Source of the DNA: an uncultured Halomicronema sp.
Lineage (GTDB): Bacteria; Cyanobacteriota; Cyanobacteriia; Phormidesmidales; Phormidesmidaceae
Assembly (NCBI GenBank): GCA_937899725.1
Contig: CALCCA010000087.1
Span: forward strand, 85,979 to 149,978
Length of the DNA: 64,000 nucleotides
Direction: 5' to 3'
Positions within the stretch are counted from its first letter, which is position 1, and the number at the start of each line of letters is the position of its first letter. A model generated the notes under the pieces. That model had not been told where the DNA came from. It made no database searches and saw nothing but the letters and a program-made list of their open reading frames with translations. The translations under genes were made by a program, and so were the position numbers. This document shows, one piece after another, positions 1 through 6,188 of this stretch.

Positions 1-444
1 TGGATCAATGTTGTGCCTCCAGCCGCTGCCGCCTCAGATACTCATTTAGTCCCTTGCCAGGAGTCAGCCGCCTTTCAACAGCGCCTGCAGAATGCCCCGC
101 AAAACTACTATTTTGATGAGCCTTATCAAGCCTATGCCTCGAACCTGCTCTGTGGCGATGATGGACTGCCGCACTTGCAGCTCCGTTTCGATCGCGCCCT
201 TGACGTCGCGATTCCCTTTGCCATCTTCTTCTATTTTGCTGGCTTTGTGGGTTGGTCAGGGCGCGCCTATTTGATTGGCAGCAAACAAGCCTCGAAACCG
301 GAAGAGCTAGAGATTTTCATTGATCTCTCCTTAGCAATCCGCTCGTTTGTTCAAGGATTATTGTGGCCCTTACTCGCGGTCAAGGAATTTACTTCTGGAG
401 AACTCACGACGCTTAAGAATGAGCTTTCGGTATCGCCTCGGTAG
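1..444 (+). CDS. psaF: Photosystem I subunit III PsaF (5' end cut by the window), probable far-red paralogue PsaF2
   Basis: PsaF is a one-helix transmembrane subunit at the edge of photosystem I, with a lumenal N-terminal domain. The frame is open to the first base, so the start and signal peptide lie outside. The visible 147 residues carry family landmarks: LVPC near the mature N-terminus, LCGDDGLPHL with the second conserved Cys, the segment IPFAIFFYFAGFVGWSGRAYLI, and the C-terminus ELSVSPR. Compared with the usual PsaF as I recall it, the lumenal part is shortened and the sequence is divergent (RFDRALDVAIPF in place of a GRLSRAGDF-like stretch). PsaJ follows 35 bases later, as in normal psaFJ operons, and Rfp-type regulators come next, which is why I infer the far-red PsaF2. 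Family assignment is firm; the PsaF2 label rests on context. Confidence 0.92.
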   Translation, partial: WINVVPPAAAASDTHLVPCQESAAFQQRLQNAPQNYYFDEPYQAYASNLLCGDDGLPHLQLRFDRALDVAIPFAIFFYFAGFVGWSGRAYLIGSKQASKPEELEIFIDLSLAIRSFVQGLLWPLLAVKEFTSGELTTLKNELSVSPR

Positions 445-479
445 CGCTTTCAGTGGCTATTCAATTACGGGAGAATCCC

Positions 480-611
480 ATGCAATACTTTTCAAAATAT
501 CTAACGAGTGCACCCATCATGGCGACGATCGCCCTCATTGTGCTCTCAGTATTCATGATTGAGCTCAATCATTTGTTTCCGGGCCTCCAGTATGGCACCT
601 ACTTTCACTAA
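480..611 (+). CDS. psaJ: Photosystem I subunit IX PsaJ, probable far-red paralogue PsaJ2
   Basis: This 43-residue protein begins MQYFSKYLTSAPIMATIAL and has a single membrane helix followed by IELNHLFPGL, the PsaJ layout (usual length about 40-44). PsaJ sits beside PsaF at the periphery of the PSI core. The start is the ATG directly after GGGAGAATCCC, with GGGAG as ribosome site. It lies 35 bases behind psaF on the same strand, so the two are almost certainly co-transcribed. The sequence differs a lot from the common PsaJ pattern, consistent with a far-red paralogue. It is too short for most ORF filters. Confidence 0.88.
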   Translation: MQYFSKYLTSAPIMATIALIVLSVFMIELNHLFPGLQYGTYFH

Positions 612-648
612 CCCTCAAAGCCCAAGCTTGAGTCAAGAGTAGGAATGT

Positions 649-684
649 CTTGCCAGGGGCTTTGATATCAAAGCCCCTGGCAAG
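649..684. terminator. Perfect 36-bp palindrome downstream of psaJ
   Basis: Positions 649-666 and 667-684 are exact reverse complements (18 bp each side, centre GAT|ATC, no loop base required). As RNA this would form a very stable hairpin 37 bases past the psaJ stop, so it probably terminates or protects the 3' end of the psa transcript. No T-tract follows on either strand, so it is not a textbook intrinsic terminator. A dyad binding site is an alternative. Confidence 0.5.
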
Positions 685-842
685 AGGAATCAATCAATGA
701 GCATAAAGCCTAGTAGCTTTATGTTGAAAATTACAACATAAGAAGCTGAATTTCTTGGGAAGATGCTTTGAAAATCTGAGCCCAAAAAAGTAAAAACGCC
801 AGCACGCGACTTTTTCCTGACAGGGATTTTTAGATCGCTCGA

Positions 843-866
843 CGGCCTGAGGCCGATCTTTTCTTT
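843..866 (+). terminator. Probable intrinsic terminator between psaJ and the regulator gene
   Basis: CGGCC, loop TGA, GGCCG (843-855) is followed by ATCTTTTCTTTT, a short GC stem with a T-rich tail in + orientation. Outer AGAT/ATCT can extend it with a bulge. Together with the palindrome at 649-684 it separates psaFJ from the regulators. The rest of 612-1009 is AT-rich and probably holds the regulator's promoter; I see no open reading frame in it. Confidence 0.5.
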
Positions 867-1009
867 TCTCTAGAAATAAACTTTAATTAATTTCGGTAAA
901 ATATTAAATAAAATCATAAATAATATTGTCTGAAAGGTGGCGTTGCCATCGCTTTTTTAAATTAAAAACAGCTTTTTATCAATGTTTGTCTCGGGCAGGC
1001 TAAAGACCC

Positions 1010-2944
1010 ATGAGGATACTACTCGTTGAGGATGATGACTCGGTCACAGCCGTGCTTGAGAAGAGTTTAGCGAGCGAGCATTATGCCGTTGATGTGGCGG
1101 GGGATGGTCATGCGGGCTGGCAAATGGTCAATTCTTTTGACTATGACCTGATCATGCTGGATGTGATGCTGCCGAAGCTCGATGGCCTGCAGTTTTGTCA
1201 GAAATTGCGCGATCACGCCTATCACATGCCGGTGCTGCTGCTGACCGCACTGGATTCGAGTACGCAAAAGATTGCGGGTCTGGATGCGGGAGCCGATGAC
1301 TACATCACGAAACCCTTTGAGCTGGCAGAGCTATTGGCGCGGGTGCGCGTGCTGCTGCGCCGGGGGCAGACGTCGCAGCTATCGGTTTTAGAGTGGGAAG
1401 ATTTGCGGCTCGACCCCAATAGTCAAGAAGTCACCTATGGCGATCGCCCGGTGAAGCTAACCCCGAAAGAATTTCGCCTGCTGGAGTTGTTTCTGCGCAA
1501 ACAGGCTCAGGTGTTTACGCGCGGCGGCATTTTAGATCGGCTCTGGAGCTGTAGCGAAGCGCCGGGTGAAGACACCGTCACGGCTCACATTCGCGGGCTG
1601 CGCCGTAAGCTCGTCGATGTGGGGGCGCCCAGTGACCTGATTAAAACGGTCTATGGCATTGGCTATCGTCTCAAGCCCGCGCGTTCAGACGCGCCGTCAA
1701 CTCCAGCGGCCCCCGCCCGCCCGGCAGCCCGGCAGCCGCCTGCGCCCACCTGCCAACAGCAGACCCAAGCGGCCCTGGCGACCCTGTGGCAATCGGTCAA
1801 GTCTCAGCATTTCGACCGGCTGGCCCTGCTCAAGCAAATGCTGCAGGCGCTACAAACTCAGCAGGTGACCGACGATTTGCGGCACCGGGCGACCCGAGCG
1901 GCCCATAGCCTGGCGGGAGCACTCGGCATCTTTGGCCTGCGGTCAGGATCAGAATTGGCGCGCTCCATCGAGCTGATGCTGCGGGGGGAGGCCCCGATTC
2001 TGCCGAATGAGCAACAGCAGTTGGCGCAGCTGATCAAGACGCTAGACCAAGAACTCAATCAGGCCTTGAGTTCGATGCAGCCGGTGCAATCGGGCCTGGC
2101 CGCGCCGCTGCTGGTCATTGTGGATGATGATTTACCGCTGATCGCGCGGGTGTCTGAGGCCATCAGCCAGCACTTACAGGTGCAAACGGCCTTAGATGAA
2201 GCAGCCCTTCAAGATTTGTGGCCGGCACTGATGGGGGCGCACCCGGCGGGAAAGCCGGGCGATCGCCCGCCCGCTGCTACCTCTAAGACAGCCCTCCCCG
2301 ACGTTGTGTTGTTAAATATTGCCCTCGCCGACAGCGATCGCGGTGACTTGCGACGGCTGTCACGGCTGATTAATCAGGTGCCGTCGCTCTTGGTGCTGGT
2401 GTGCAGCCGCGATGACCGCCTAGCCAATCGGGTCAAAGCCGCTCAGTTGGGCAGTCAGGCATTCTTGCCCAATCCCGATGTTGCTGCCGTGCTCAAGAGT
2501 GTGCTCAGTGTGCGATCGCGCTTTCCCGCCTCGGCCCATAAAGTCATGATCGTCGATGATGACCCCCAGATTTTGCAGGCGCTGCAGACCTTTCTCGAAC
2601 CGCAGGGGTTTCAGCTCATTACCCTTAATCAGCCCCTCGATTTTTGGGCCACCCTGCAGGCCGCCGCCCCCGATCTGCTGCTGCTGGATATCGAGATGCC
2701 CAAATTTAACGGCCTCGAACTTTGCCGCACCGTTCGTCAGGCCCCGATTTGGAATCAGTTGCCGATTATCTTCTTTACGGCCCACGGTGATGCCAATACT
2801 AAAGCCGCTGCCCTGAGAGCCGGAGCCAATGACCTGGTCGAAAAATCGCTGACGAAATCCACCCTGCTCGATCGCCTGTTTGAACAACTCAAGCAATCGC
2901 AGCTGCAGCAGGCTATGACCGCGATCGCCGAAATCCCGATCTGA
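1010..2944 (+). CDS. rfpB: Multidomain response regulator (REC-wHTH-HPt-REC-REC), RfpB-type
   Basis: DNA-binding phosphorelay protein of 644 residues. Receiver 1 (about 1-120) has acidic EDDD at 7-10, phospho-acceptor D51 in LDVMLPK, and TKPFELAELLARV. An OmpR-type winged helix (about 125-222) ends with TVYGIGYRLKP. A helical HPt-like domain (about 250-340) has H299 in AAHSLAGALGIFG. A second receiver-like domain (about 360-490) has N in place of the phospho-Asp (VVLLNIAL), so it is probably inactive. A complete third receiver (about 505-630) has LLLLDIEMPKFNG. FaRLiP RfpB is described as receiver-DNA-binding-receiver, so the HPt and degenerate receiver are extra. It is followed by the kinase (193-base gap) and the lone receiver. 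The gene assignment is inferred from this trio beside psaFJ. Confidence 0.75.
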   Translation: MRILLVEDDDSVTAVLEKSLASEHYAVDVAGDGHAGWQMVNSFDYDLIMLDVMLPKLDGLQFCQKLRDHAYHMPVLLLTALDSSTQKIAGLDAGADDYITKPFELAELLARVRVLLRRGQTSQLSVLEWEDLRLDPNSQEVTYGDRPVKLTPKEFRLLELFLRKQAQVFTRGGILDRLWSCSEAPGEDTVTAHIRGLRRKLVDVGAPSDLIKTVYGIGYRLKPARSDAPSTPAAPARPAARQPPAPTCQQQTQAALATLWQSVKSQHFDRLALLKQMLQALQTQQVTDDLRHRATRAAHSLAGALGIFGLRSGSELARSIELMLRGEAPILPNEQQQLAQLIKTLDQELNQALSSMQPVQSGLAAPLLVIVDDDLPLIARVSEAISQHLQVQTALDEAALQDLWPALMGAHPAGKPGDRPPAATSKTALPDVVLLNIALADSDRGDLRRLSRLINQVPSLLVLVCSRDDRLANRVKAAQLGSQAFLPNPDVAAVLKSVLSVRSRFPASAHKVMIVDDDPQILQALQTFLEPQGFQLITLNQPLDFWATLQAAAPDLLLLDIEMPKFNGLELCRTVRQAPIWNQLPIIFFTAHGDANTKAAALRAGANDLVEKSLTKSTLLDRLFEQLKQSQLQQAMTAIAEIPI

Positions 2945-2983
2945 CCCGCACGAGGCTATTTGGCCTACCCCCAAACCCCGTAC

Positions 2984-3050
2984 GGGCGAGGCATTCTCGA
3001 AATAACTAATTCAGTTTTGACCGATATCTTTGAACGAGAATGCCTCGCCC
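2984..3050. repeat. Inverted repeat with GGGCGAGGCATTCTCG arms
   Basis: The arm at 2984-2999 (GGGCGAGGCATTCTCG) is repeated as its exact reverse complement at 3035-3050, with a 35-base spacer. It lies between the regulator and kinase genes. A related arm pair (GAGGCATCG / CGATGCCTC) occurs at 60646-60685, so this is probably a dispersed family. After it, 3051-3137 is pyrimidine-rich. Confidence 0.6.
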
Positions 3051-3137
3051 CTCCCGCCATTTTTGACCCCAATATTTAATCGAGCCGGCCTCGCCCCTGC
3101 ACCCTCCCCCCTTGCCCCCTGAATCCTCCCCTCCCGC

Positions 3138-5699
3138 ATGTCTCCCTCCTCTTCCATCCCGACCCTCGAAGGACTCCTCCATCGCATTACCGATCGCATT
3201 CGCCGCTCGATTGAGCTGCCCGATATTCTGACCTCAACCGCGACGGAAACCCAGCGATTTTTGGCCACCGATCGCGTCAAGGTCTATCGCTTTCATGACG
3301 ATGACAGCGGTGAAGTGGTGGCGGAGGCGATGAGTGCCCGCAAATTACCGTCCCTACTCGGGCATCGCTTTCCGGCGGAGGATATTCCCGATCGCTCCCG
3401 CGAAATGTTTTTGGCAGCCCGGCAGCGCACGATTGTCAATGTCGCCAAACAAGAAATTGGCATTAGTCATCTGGTGGACTACCGCACCCAGAGAGCGCTC
3501 GATCATAATCTCTGGTTTCGCTCGGTTGATCCTTGCCATGTGGAATATCTCACCGCCATGGGGGTGCAGGCGTCGTTGGTGGTGCCCCTGCTGCATCACC
3601 ATCGCCTCTGGGGGTTACTCGTCGCTCATCACAGCACGCCGCGCTGGTTTAGCCCCCAAGAATTAGAGATGATGCAGCTGATTGCCGATCAAGTCACCGG
3701 GGCGATCGCCCACGCCACCCTGTTGACCCAAAGCCGCCTCAAGACTGACCGCGAAGCTACCCTCAACCGCGTGGCCTCGCAGCTGCAAGACTTTAGCAAA
3801 AGCTCTCTGCAAACGGCCCTGCACCGAACTGTCACGGCCCTTAACAGTACGGGTGGCCGCCTCTATCTCGCGCCTCTATCGGCGCAAGCGGCACCGCAAA
3901 TCCTCCTCAGTGGGGCGCAGCCGAGTCTCAATACCGAGGATGGTCGCGCCCAGCGGCGCACGCAGCCACCCGTGTTAGAAGAGTTGCCGGACTGGCAGAC
4001 CTGGCTAACTCACGAGATGCCGACGCAGCCCGGCTCCCAAATCTGGGCTATCACCGATACGCATCAGGCGCATTTGCCCTCAACCCTCGACTCGGCCTTG
4101 CGCCGCCGCGATATGCGGGGTCTCTTGGTGATGCAGCTCTGTCACCAAAACCGCCAGCTAGGCTATCTCAGCCTGTTTCGCCAGGCGATCGCGATCGAAA
4201 ATATTTGGGCCGGGCGGCTGAATACGGCTGACCCCCGACAAAACCGCCCCCGGCAGTCGTTTGAGACCTGGCGCGAACTTAAGCGCGGTCAGGTGCATCC
4301 GTGGACGGCCCAAGACCTAGAGTTAGCGCAAGCCTTGGCCGATCAGTTCGCTTCAGTGATTTATCAGACGCAACTCTACCAAGAAGTGCAAAGGCTGAAT
4401 GCGGATCTGGAAAAGCGCGTCTTCCAGCGGACTGCCGAGCTAGAGTGCGTCAATACTGACTTAAGGCTAGAGATTCTCGAACGAGAACGCACGCTGGCCG
4501 AGCTGCAGCAGGCGAAGGACTCGCTCAAACAGTTAAGTCATCAAAATGACCTGATTTTGCGATCTGCGGGCGACGGCATTTATGGCCTGGATGCTCAGGG
4601 CCAGGTCGTTTTTGTGAATCCGGCGGCCGCCAAAATGCTGGAGCAGCCGACCCAGCAGCTGATTGGTCAATTTATCCATCCCCTGATCGCCCAGGCGCGG
4701 CCCGATGGTACCCCCTATGAGTGGCCCGACAGCCCCATTTACGACACGCTGCACTCGGGGCAGACCCACTACGTCTCGGGCGATTTGTTTCATCGGCAAG
4801 ATGGGGCGAGCTTTGCCACCGAATACGTCAGCACCCCGCTGCGAGAGGCCGACCGGATTTTAGGCGGGGTGGTGACCTTTAGAGACATTACTGAGCGGCA
4901 AATGATCGAACGGATGAAAGATGAATTCATCTCTGTCGTCAGTCATGAATTGCGCACCCCCCTGACCTCGATTCGCGCGGCTCTGGGGCTGCTGGCGGCC
5001 ACCAACCTCGACATCCACTCGCAAAAACGCCAGCGGATGGTGGAAATTGCGTTTTCGAATACGAATCGCTTAGTGCGTTTGGTCAATGACATCCTAGATG
5101 TGGAACGGATCAAGTTGGGGAAGGTCACCCTCAGCAAGCAAATGTGTGACCTGGCGGATATTCTGGCTCAGGCCGCGGATGAGATGCGTGCGATCGCCGA
5201 AAAAAACCGCATTCACCTGGCGGTCAACCCCCTCTCCGTTAAGCTTTGGGCCGACCCCGATCGCCTCATTCAAACCTTCACCAATCTGCTGAGCAACGCC
5301 ATCAAGTTTTCTCCGGCGGGGTCAACGGTCACGGTCATTGCCGAAACGATTCACCCCGGACAACTGCTGTTAGATCCCACCCATTCTCTCTCGCAACGGC
5401 TAGAGGCCCTGATGGAAAAGCGAGAAACGGCTGTCCCTGCGGTGCTGTTAGTGCAGGTCAAAGATCAGGGGCAGGGCATTCCTGAGAACAAGTTGGAGGT
5501 GATTTTTCAACAATTTGAGCAGCTCAACGTTTCCAATACCGGTCACCAGGGTGGCACGGGGCTGGGCTTGGCCATTTGTCGCAGTATTGTGCAGCAGCAT
5601 GACGGACAAATTTGGGCGGAGAACAATGCCGACGGGGGCAGTACTTTCTTTGTGGTGCTGCCGCTATCGGCTGAGCCCGACCGGCAGGCCCAGCCTTAA
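3138..5699 (+). CDS. rfpA: Knotless phytochrome histidine kinase (GAF-PHY-PAS-HisKA-HATPase), RfpA-type
   Basis: Red/far-red photoreceptor kinase of 853 residues. The GAF domain (about 10-195) has the DIP motif at 82-84 and DPCHVEYL, whose C133 sits where cyanobacterial phytochromes attach bilin. The PHY domain (about 200-420) has the tongue signature: WAGR, then PRQSFETW, then PWT. A coiled stretch leads to a PAS domain (about 470-590), then HisKA with H603 in SHELRTPL, then an ATPase with NLLSNAIKFS, DQGQGIP and GTGLGLAI. No N-terminal PAS domain precedes GAF, so it is knotless, as reported for RfpA of FaRLiP cyanobacteria. In that pathway RfpA signals through RfpC to RfpB; both candidates flank this gene on the same strand. 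Phytochrome kinase is near certain; the RfpA label rests on architecture and context. Confidence 0.8.
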   Translation: MSPSSSIPTLEGLLHRITDRIRRSIELPDILTSTATETQRFLATDRVKVYRFHDDDSGEVVAEAMSARKLPSLLGHRFPAEDIPDRSREMFLAARQRTIVNVAKQEIGISHLVDYRTQRALDHNLWFRSVDPCHVEYLTAMGVQASLVVPLLHHHRLWGLLVAHHSTPRWFSPQELEMMQLIADQVTGAIAHATLLTQSRLKTDREATLNRVASQLQDFSKSSLQTALHRTVTALNSTGGRLYLAPLSAQAAPQILLSGAQPSLNTEDGRAQRRTQPPVLEELPDWQTWLTHEMPTQPGSQIWAITDTHQAHLPSTLDSALRRRDMRGLLVMQLCHQNRQLGYLSLFRQAIAIENIWAGRLNTADPRQNRPRQSFETWRELKRGQVHPWTAQDLELAQALADQFASVIYQTQLYQEVQRLNADLEKRVFQRTAELECVNTDLRLEILERERTLAELQQAKDSLKQLSHQNDLILRSAGDGIYGLDAQGQVVFVNPAAAKMLEQPTQQLIGQFIHPLIAQARPDGTPYEWPDSPIYDTLHSGQTHYVSGDLFHRQDGASFATEYVSTPLREADRILGGVVTFRDITERQMIERMKDEFISVVSHELRTPLTSIRAALGLLAATNLDIHSQKRQRMVEIAFSNTNRLVRLVNDILDVERIKLGKVTLSKQMCDLADILAQAADEMRAIAEKNRIHLAVNPLSVKLWADPDRLIQTFTNLLSNAIKFSPAGSTVTVIAETIHPGQLLLDPTHSLSQRLEALMEKRETAVPAVLLVQVKDQGQGIPENKLEVIFQQFEQLNVSNTGHQGGTGLGLAICRSIVQQHDGQIWAENNADGGSTFFVVLPLSAEPDRQAQP

Positions 5700-5804
5700 A
5701 GCGACTGGTGCCCGACTGATCGGGCCGGGCGATATCGATGTTTCAGCACTGCAAACGTCACCGCTTACGACTCTTGCCCACCGTTTATCTCAAGAGAGTT
5801 TCCC

Positions 5805-6188
5805 ATGGCCTCCAAACAGATTCTCATTATTGATGATGAAGCCGATATTCGCGAAGCGACTCAGATTTGCCTGGAAATTACGGGACAGTGGGAGGTGCTC
5901 AAGGCCAGTAATGGGCCAGAGGGCATTGCGATCGCGAAAACGGCCACCCCTGATGCCATTCTGTTAGACATCATGATGCCAGAAATGGACGGACTCGCGA
6001 TTTTGCAAAAGCTCCAGGAAAATTCGGAAACGCGGAAAATTCCGGTGATTATCTTGACCGCGAAGGCCCAATCGAGTGAGCAGCGGCAGTTTAGCCAGCT
6101 CAATGTTTCTTCTGTGATTGCGAAGCCCTATGACCCCATGACGCTCTCTGATCAGATATCAACGGCCCTAGCCAATCAACGACCCTAA
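5805..6188 (+). CDS. rfpC: Single-domain receiver (CheY-like), RfpC-type
   Basis: A stand-alone receiver of 127 residues: IDDEAD at the N-terminus, phospho-acceptor Asp in ILLDIMMPEMDG, T in VIILTAKA and the conserved Lys in AKPYDP. There is no output domain. In FaRLiP, RfpC is proposed to shuttle phosphate between RfpA and RfpB, and this gene follows the phytochrome kinase by 105 bases. The start is the ATG after AAGAGAGTTTCCC. It could be a generic CheY, but the neighbours argue for RfpC. Confidence 0.75.
   Translation: MASKQILIIDDEADIREATQICLEITGQWEVLKASNGPEGIAIAKTATPDAILLDIMMPEMDGLAILQKLQENSETRKIPVIILTAKAQSSEQRQFSQLNVSSVIAKPYDPMTLSDQISTALANQRP

Follow-up and report, generated by a model that had tools for sequence, protein, structure and literature searches.

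The window analysed here, a 64,000-nucleotide stretch of DNA (G000:C87:85979-149978), comes from an uncultured Halomicronema sp. whose assembly (G000) comprises 7.0 Mb in 216 contigs, and its first 6188 bases are the 3' end of a far-red light photoacclimation (FaRLiP) cluster which spans ~60.8-92.2 kb of contig C87. With such a cluster a cyanobacterium can remodel its photosynthesis for far-red light. Reading the contig upstream together with the window gave psaF2-psaJ2-rfpB-rfpA-rfpC as the gene order that ends the cluster. These genes all lie on the forward strand: psaF2, for photosystem I (PSI) subunit III (C87:85940-86422; its 3' part is window 1..444 and its 5' end lies 39 bases before window base 1), psaJ2, for PSI subunit IX (window 480..611; PF01701, 8.6e-13), and the regulatory genes rfpB (window 1010..2944), rfpA (window 3138..5699) and rfpC (window 5805..6188). 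A first-pass annotation had named a psaF, a psaJ, a regulator, a phytochrome and a lone receiver at these places and had taken them for the probable end of a FaRLiP cluster; all five were found where it had put them, and its reading was right, with the remaining cluster genes, among them the psaA2, psaB2, psaL2, chlF and apcE2 that it had expected, present on C87 upstream of window base 1. Every core FaRLiP gene was found on C87 as an intact open frame. Gene content confirms that the FaRLiP cluster is complete and of the Halomicronema type, that the window starts in its PSI and regulator end, and that the cluster itself is one more case of a known kind.

The far-red PSI genes psaA2 (C87:79546-81903), psaB2 (C87:82034-84265), psaL2 (C87:84460-85029) and psaI2 (C87:85302-85535), all on the plus strand, stand together with psaF2 and psaJ2 at C87:79546-86589. 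The psaF-psaJ pair, described as divergent in the first pass, is so in sequence, PsaF being 47% identical to the other PsaF of the genome (on C75). Compared with PDB chains, PsaF gave bit scores of 253 against 7S3D, 187 against 9EYS and 163 against 6PNJ, and no visible-light PSI scored above 135; the best chains for PsaJ were 7S3D_J, 6PNJ_J and 9EYS_J, far above any visible-light PsaJ. We take 7S3D and 6PNJ to be the far-red PSI entries of Synechococcus sp. PCC 7335 and Fischerella, respectively, and 9EYS to be a far-red PSI judging by its sequence. Both subunits thus match far-red chains best and do not side with white-light paralogues. Across 65 genomes of the order PsaF is bimodal: identity is 69-100% in 11 genomes that carry a FaRLiP cluster and does not exceed 51% elsewhere. 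In the PsaF tree the window copy belongs to a far-red group (including the PCC 7335, 6PNJ and 9EYS sequences) which forms one side of a 100/100 branch. Equivalents of the far-red residues PsaF2-Tyr49, PsaJ2-Leu31 and PsaJ2-Tyr40 (PMC10694217) are all present, the last in the far-red insertion QYGTY of the PsaJ2 C-terminus GLQYGTYF. The genome has three psaA/psaB pairs: the FaRLiP pair, 2 kb upstream of the window, and two extra ones at G000:C65:93507-97929, followed by its own psaL, and G000:C88:121280-125669.

The far-red photosystem II (PSII) genes psbA3, psbB2, psbC2, psbD3 and psbH2 all lie at C87:60756-68474, and are also found in the clusters of relatives. Apart from psbA3 (C87:60756-61856, plus strand), this part of the cluster is on the minus strand: an open reading frame (ORF) of family DUF1257 (C87:63006-63389), a small one-helix ORF (C87:63438-63590), psbH2 (C87:63637-63858), psbB2 (C87:64164-65705), psbC2 (C87:65877-67325) and psbD3 (C87:67416-68474). 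The DUF1257 and one-helix ORFs accompany psbH2 in several Halomicronema-type clusters. The allophycocyanin genes follow on the same strand at C87:68554-73944, with apcD-like genes at C87:68554-69087, 71913-72392 and 73468-73944, apcB2 at C87:72776-73264 and apcE2 at C87:69428-71800. The latter carries VIPEDV (GLRGVIPEDVTLAT), which we take as an apcE2 marker. The chlF gene (psbA4; C87:78187-79440, plus strand) encodes the QD motif, with YQDREW at the YMGREW of D1 (MG to QD), and the positions of D170, H332 and D342 are altered, whereas PsbA3 retains all three, as expected from published work (PMC10535343). The open frames demonstrate a full set of predicted far-red PSI, PSII and allophycocyanin paralogues, together with a QD-motif ChlF, an rfpB-rfpA-rfpC operon and a psbO-psbF-psbV module within the cluster.

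The regulatory operon at window 1010-6188 has the knotless phytochrome and the two-receiver winged helix-turn-helix (wHTH) regulator of the rfpB-rfpA-rfpC operon used for comparison (PMC4658448). RfpA has a GAF domain (27-190), PHY, a PAS domain (471-584), HisKA and HATPase, and lacks an N-terminal PAS; these Pfam domains and the cysteine of DPCHVEYL, which is residue 133, bear out the knotless GAF-PHY-PAS-kinase phytochrome with bilin Cys133 proposed earlier. It was assigned by gene position and by its 55-69% identity to rfpA of the other FaRLiP clusters of the order; the corresponding values are 49-70% for RfpB, whose gene sits at the equivalent position in those clusters, and 65-81% for RfpC, indeed a lone receiver with a single PF00072 domain (2.5e-26). 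RfpB, the presumed transcription activator, had been described as a receiver (REC)-wHTH regulator, which held for the REC (3-113) and the winged helix (146-221) but was incomplete: Pfam also finds an Hpt domain (273-347) and a second, C-terminal REC, which was also picked up as an rfpC-like match. The paper on RfpABC gives RfpB two receivers either side of the helix and describes no further domain; the Hpt would fit a phosphorelay from RfpA through RfpC to RfpB.

The psbO-psbF-psbV module lies between the apc genes and chlF and consists of psbO2 (C87:75163-76035, plus strand; Pfam MSP), psbF2 (C87:76387-76521, plus; Pfam Cytochrom_B559) and psbV2 (C87:76685-77197, minus; Pfam Cytochrom_C550). 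Each of the three has another copy in the genome, psbF on C29 (84% identical), and psbO (54%) and psbV (50%) elsewhere. A module at the same place was found in Oscillatoria CS-180, Nodosilinea strains, Leptolyngbya cf. ectocarpi, DLM2.Bin27 and G060; that of Vasconcelosia lacks psbF. In G029, a further chlF genome, the psbV of the module adjoins chlF at a contig end. PsbO of the far-red type, 57-100% identical to PsbO1 of PCC 7335, is carried by 13 of the 65 genomes, all other PsbO of the order being at most 51% identical except for one 37-residue fragment. All 13 also have chlF (Fisher p = 4e-11, counted before the broken chlF of G058 was found and, since related genomes are not independent, only descriptive). 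G058 had been considered a case of the module without chlF and was dropped, its chlF being present but broken over two pieces at a contig end (G058:C146, L253:3305-4450), which may mean either that the gene is disrupted or that the sequence is in error. Ranking against PDB chains failed to separate far-red from housekeeping PsbV or PsbF, so trees were used for PsbO and PsbV, PsbF being too short for one. The PsbO and PsbV encoded within clusters each form a 100/100 clade apart from the housekeeping copies, and the ratio of nonsynonymous to synonymous substitution rates (dN/dS) within the far-red clade is 0.04-0.10. A separate housekeeping PsbO was found in 12 of the 13 genomes, the exception (G006) being a fragmented assembly. 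The PsbO copies of nine whole FaRLiP genomes of other groups all fall outside the far-red PsbO clade.

This module bears on Synechococcus sp. PCC 7335, which is G056 of our panel (PsbO1 100% identical to 8EQM_O, PsaF2 100% to 7S3D_F). Its FaRLiP cluster is split in two halves ~1.1 Mb apart, one running from chlF to rfpC (1.64-1.656 Mb) and the other (C1:2.756-2.770 Mb) holding psbA3, psbH2, psbB2, psbC2, psbD3, the apc genes, psbO1, psbF2, an NblA-like ORF and psbV1. The module follows directly after the apc genes, psbO1 starting ~0.4 kb past the last of them, and PsbO1 and PsbV1 fall in the far-red PsbO and PsbV clades. Neighbourhood and trees argue that PsbO1, PsbV1 and PsbF2 of PCC 7335 belong to the far-red module, and as a correction for this strain we propose to regard all three as its members. 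An apcD-apcB-isiX-like trio of the low-light photoacclimation (LoLiP) type was also seen ~20 kb behind psbV1 in PCC 7335 (L155, G056:C1, ~2.790 Mb), and another just behind rfpC in G036 (L258:11372-13560, G036:C33).

Upstream regions of the clusters, read toward the apc or chlF operon, share a block, YTTCATNRGTTYTTCATTTTT, which is a direct repeat TCTTCAT-N4-TCTTCAT. Upstream of the window this box occurs as a candidate operator at C87:74415-74433 (minus) and C87:77804-77822 (plus); across the family it precedes the operons of apc, chlF and psbA3 and often that of psbO. The enrichment of 8-mers in the upstream regions did not exceed that in shuffles and 10-mers were barely above them, while 12-mers exceeded them. 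A first matrix drew on 11 apc|psbO regions alone. In 442 kb it picked out 25 sites with a score of at least 17, against none in shuffles; one of the 25 lies behind rfpC in G036, and the other 24 are in apc|psbO regions or upstream of chlF. A second matrix, built from 24 sites of this kind, found psbO-side copies that are strong in G012, G060, G064 and G058 and weak (10-12) in G056, G059, G005 and G000, as well as psbA3 copies in G000, G036, G056, G059 and G064. Applied untrained to 12 FaRLiP loci of other groups, it gave sites of at least 17 in every one, in front of chlF/psbA3, psaA2 or rfpC; several of the 12 are close relatives and so amount to fewer independent cases. The control, 314 kb of non-FaRLiP loci, gave two.

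Over whole genomes, the exact pattern TYCAYNRGTTYTYCAYTTT was matched 20 times in 12 FaRLiP genomes of the order, always inside clusters, and not once in 15 relatives that lack FaRLiP; as the pattern was derived from clusters the matches there are expected, and the information lies in its absence elsewhere. Nine distant FaRLiP genomes gave eight exact matches, four in known clusters, two elsewhere in G065, one beside rfp-like genes in G069, and one, previously unused, in Calothrix NIES-3974, where it precedes the operon psaA2-psaB2-psaL2-psaI2 at a distance of ~259 kb from the chlF cluster. In G069 a near-perfect box was noted 3' of an rfpC-like gene (G069:C356, L261:4694), ~50 bp upstream of an ORF without assigned function. 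Five of the six one-mismatch matches outside clusters whose context was examined were taken as chance, four being within unrelated open frames (G000 C93, G005 C18, G072 C1 and G065 C99) and one between two unrelated genes (G073 C10). The sixth belongs to PCC 7335 and stands ~140 bp before psbE, on the strand opposite to it (G056:C1:2490233-2490251); the same 19-mer occurs ~440 bp upstream of psbF at G059:C46:39501-39519.

A period of 11 bp (7 bp + 4 bp) fits the sites of PhoB/OmpR-type regulators. RfpB has a DNA-binding domain of the OmpR family type by Pfam and is the sole DNA-binding regulator common to the clusters, which makes the box a candidate RfpB operator by conservation, position and genome-wide specificity. 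In the literature far-red light acts on RfpA, and the signal passes via RfpC to the activator RfpB. RfpB would then bind TCTTCAT pairs with an 11-bp spacing in front of the apc-psb, chlF-psa, psbA3 and psbO operons, turning all of these on together, and the cell would produce chlorophyll f and assemble far-red PSI and PSII. In the Halomicronema-type family the far-red PSII would be capped by its own PsbO and PsbV rather than by the housekeeping copies, and in most members it would also receive its own PsbF. That a complete FaRLiP cluster, switching through RfpB and the box, and a far-red PSII capped by the module together give the best explanation of the locus we consider very probable. The sharper statement, that TCTTCAT-N4-TCTTCAT is a previously undescribed RfpB operator of FaRLiP clusters through which the family, PCC 7335 included, runs a far-red PSII with its own PsbO/PsbV cap and often its own PsbF, is offered tentatively, at somewhat less than an even chance.

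Several points weigh against these readings. Reduced FaRLiP clusters do exist (PMC11424453, PMC13396731); that this one has decayed or is incomplete, or that its genes are ordinary paralogues for visible light, is nevertheless highly improbable at this locus, where all core genes are open and intact, the far-red residues are retained, and ChlF and PsbV recur with 98% identity to the window-genome copies in a second assembly. As for the module, psbF is absent from the clusters of G064:C150 and G059:C230 while psbO and psbV remain, psbO1, psbF2 and psbV1 of PCC 7335 have been placed outside its FaRLiP cluster (PMC9843442), and the psbF genes of that strain were reported as unmodulated by FaRLiP (PMC8689208). 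The three genes could then be accessory PSII copies for all light conditions, unrelated to far-red light and linked to the cluster by chance. This we regard as unlikely, given that far-red PsbO always occurs with chlF in the order, that a separate housekeeping PsbO is kept (G006 aside) and that several genomes have boxes ahead of psbO. Moreover, the in-cluster PsbO and PsbV of H. hongdechloris increase under far-red light (PMC6416890), and PsbO1, PsbV1 and PsbF2 predominate in the far-red light PSII of PCC 7335 (PMC9843442).

The window genome itself also offers counter-evidence: the box closest to psbO2 has a weak score of 10.9, psbV2 lacks a box of its own, and no box scoring at least 12 lies inside the window, for which reason control of rfpBAC by the box is not predicted. 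The conserved repeat might instead be the site of another regulator or part of a core promoter, since it is AT-rich and only its PhoB-like geometry points to a regulator of the OmpR family, of which RfpB is one. We think this rather doubtful, though a more serious contender than chance linkage of the module: the repeat tracks FaRLiP operons across distant lineages and at unlinked FaRLiP loci, the 15 non-FaRLiP genomes have no exact match, and no other DNA-binding regulator is common to the clusters.

The cluster adds one to the strains for which life on far-red light is predicted; the findings on the module and the operator matter more. Which PsbO, PsbV and PsbF serve in far-red PSII bears on water oxidation with less energetic photons and on how the PCC 7335 structures are interpreted. 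A defined candidate operator would make RfpB control of FaRLiP directly testable, would let the FaRLiP regulon be identified in any genome, and would aid the transfer of far-red photosynthesis to other hosts. Of the findings it is the likeliest to be new, with a reservation: a search of the literature, not exhaustive, found no RfpB binding motif, and Liu et al. reportedly characterised the JSC-1 chlF promoter in ACS Synth Biol in 2023 and are said, perhaps, to have described cis-elements. If those already include TTCATNRGTTYTTCAT, the box would have been described for a single promoter, and the novelty would lie in its wider occurrence.

Among known systems the closest is that of H. hongdechloris C2206 (PMC6416890), which shares with the window genome the core gene set, rfpB-rfpA-rfpC and an extra psbO and psbV within the cluster, as well as three psaA/psaB pairs, two psaF and two psaJ. 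Judged from the genomes compared, the module is a lineage-wide extension of that published observation, the paper being silent on the psbF of the module and on any shared promoter element. The loci of PCC 7335 have the same genes in nearly the same order per half, but are split in two and carry psbV in the opposite orientation. The clusters of Chlorogloeopsis, Fischerella, Calothrix and Pleurocapsales differ in that no psbO-psbF-psbV module was seen in the stretches examined; they share with the window cluster the core far-red paralogues and the rfp genes, and in them too the TCTTCAT repeat precedes chlF/psbA3 and, in several cases, psaA2.

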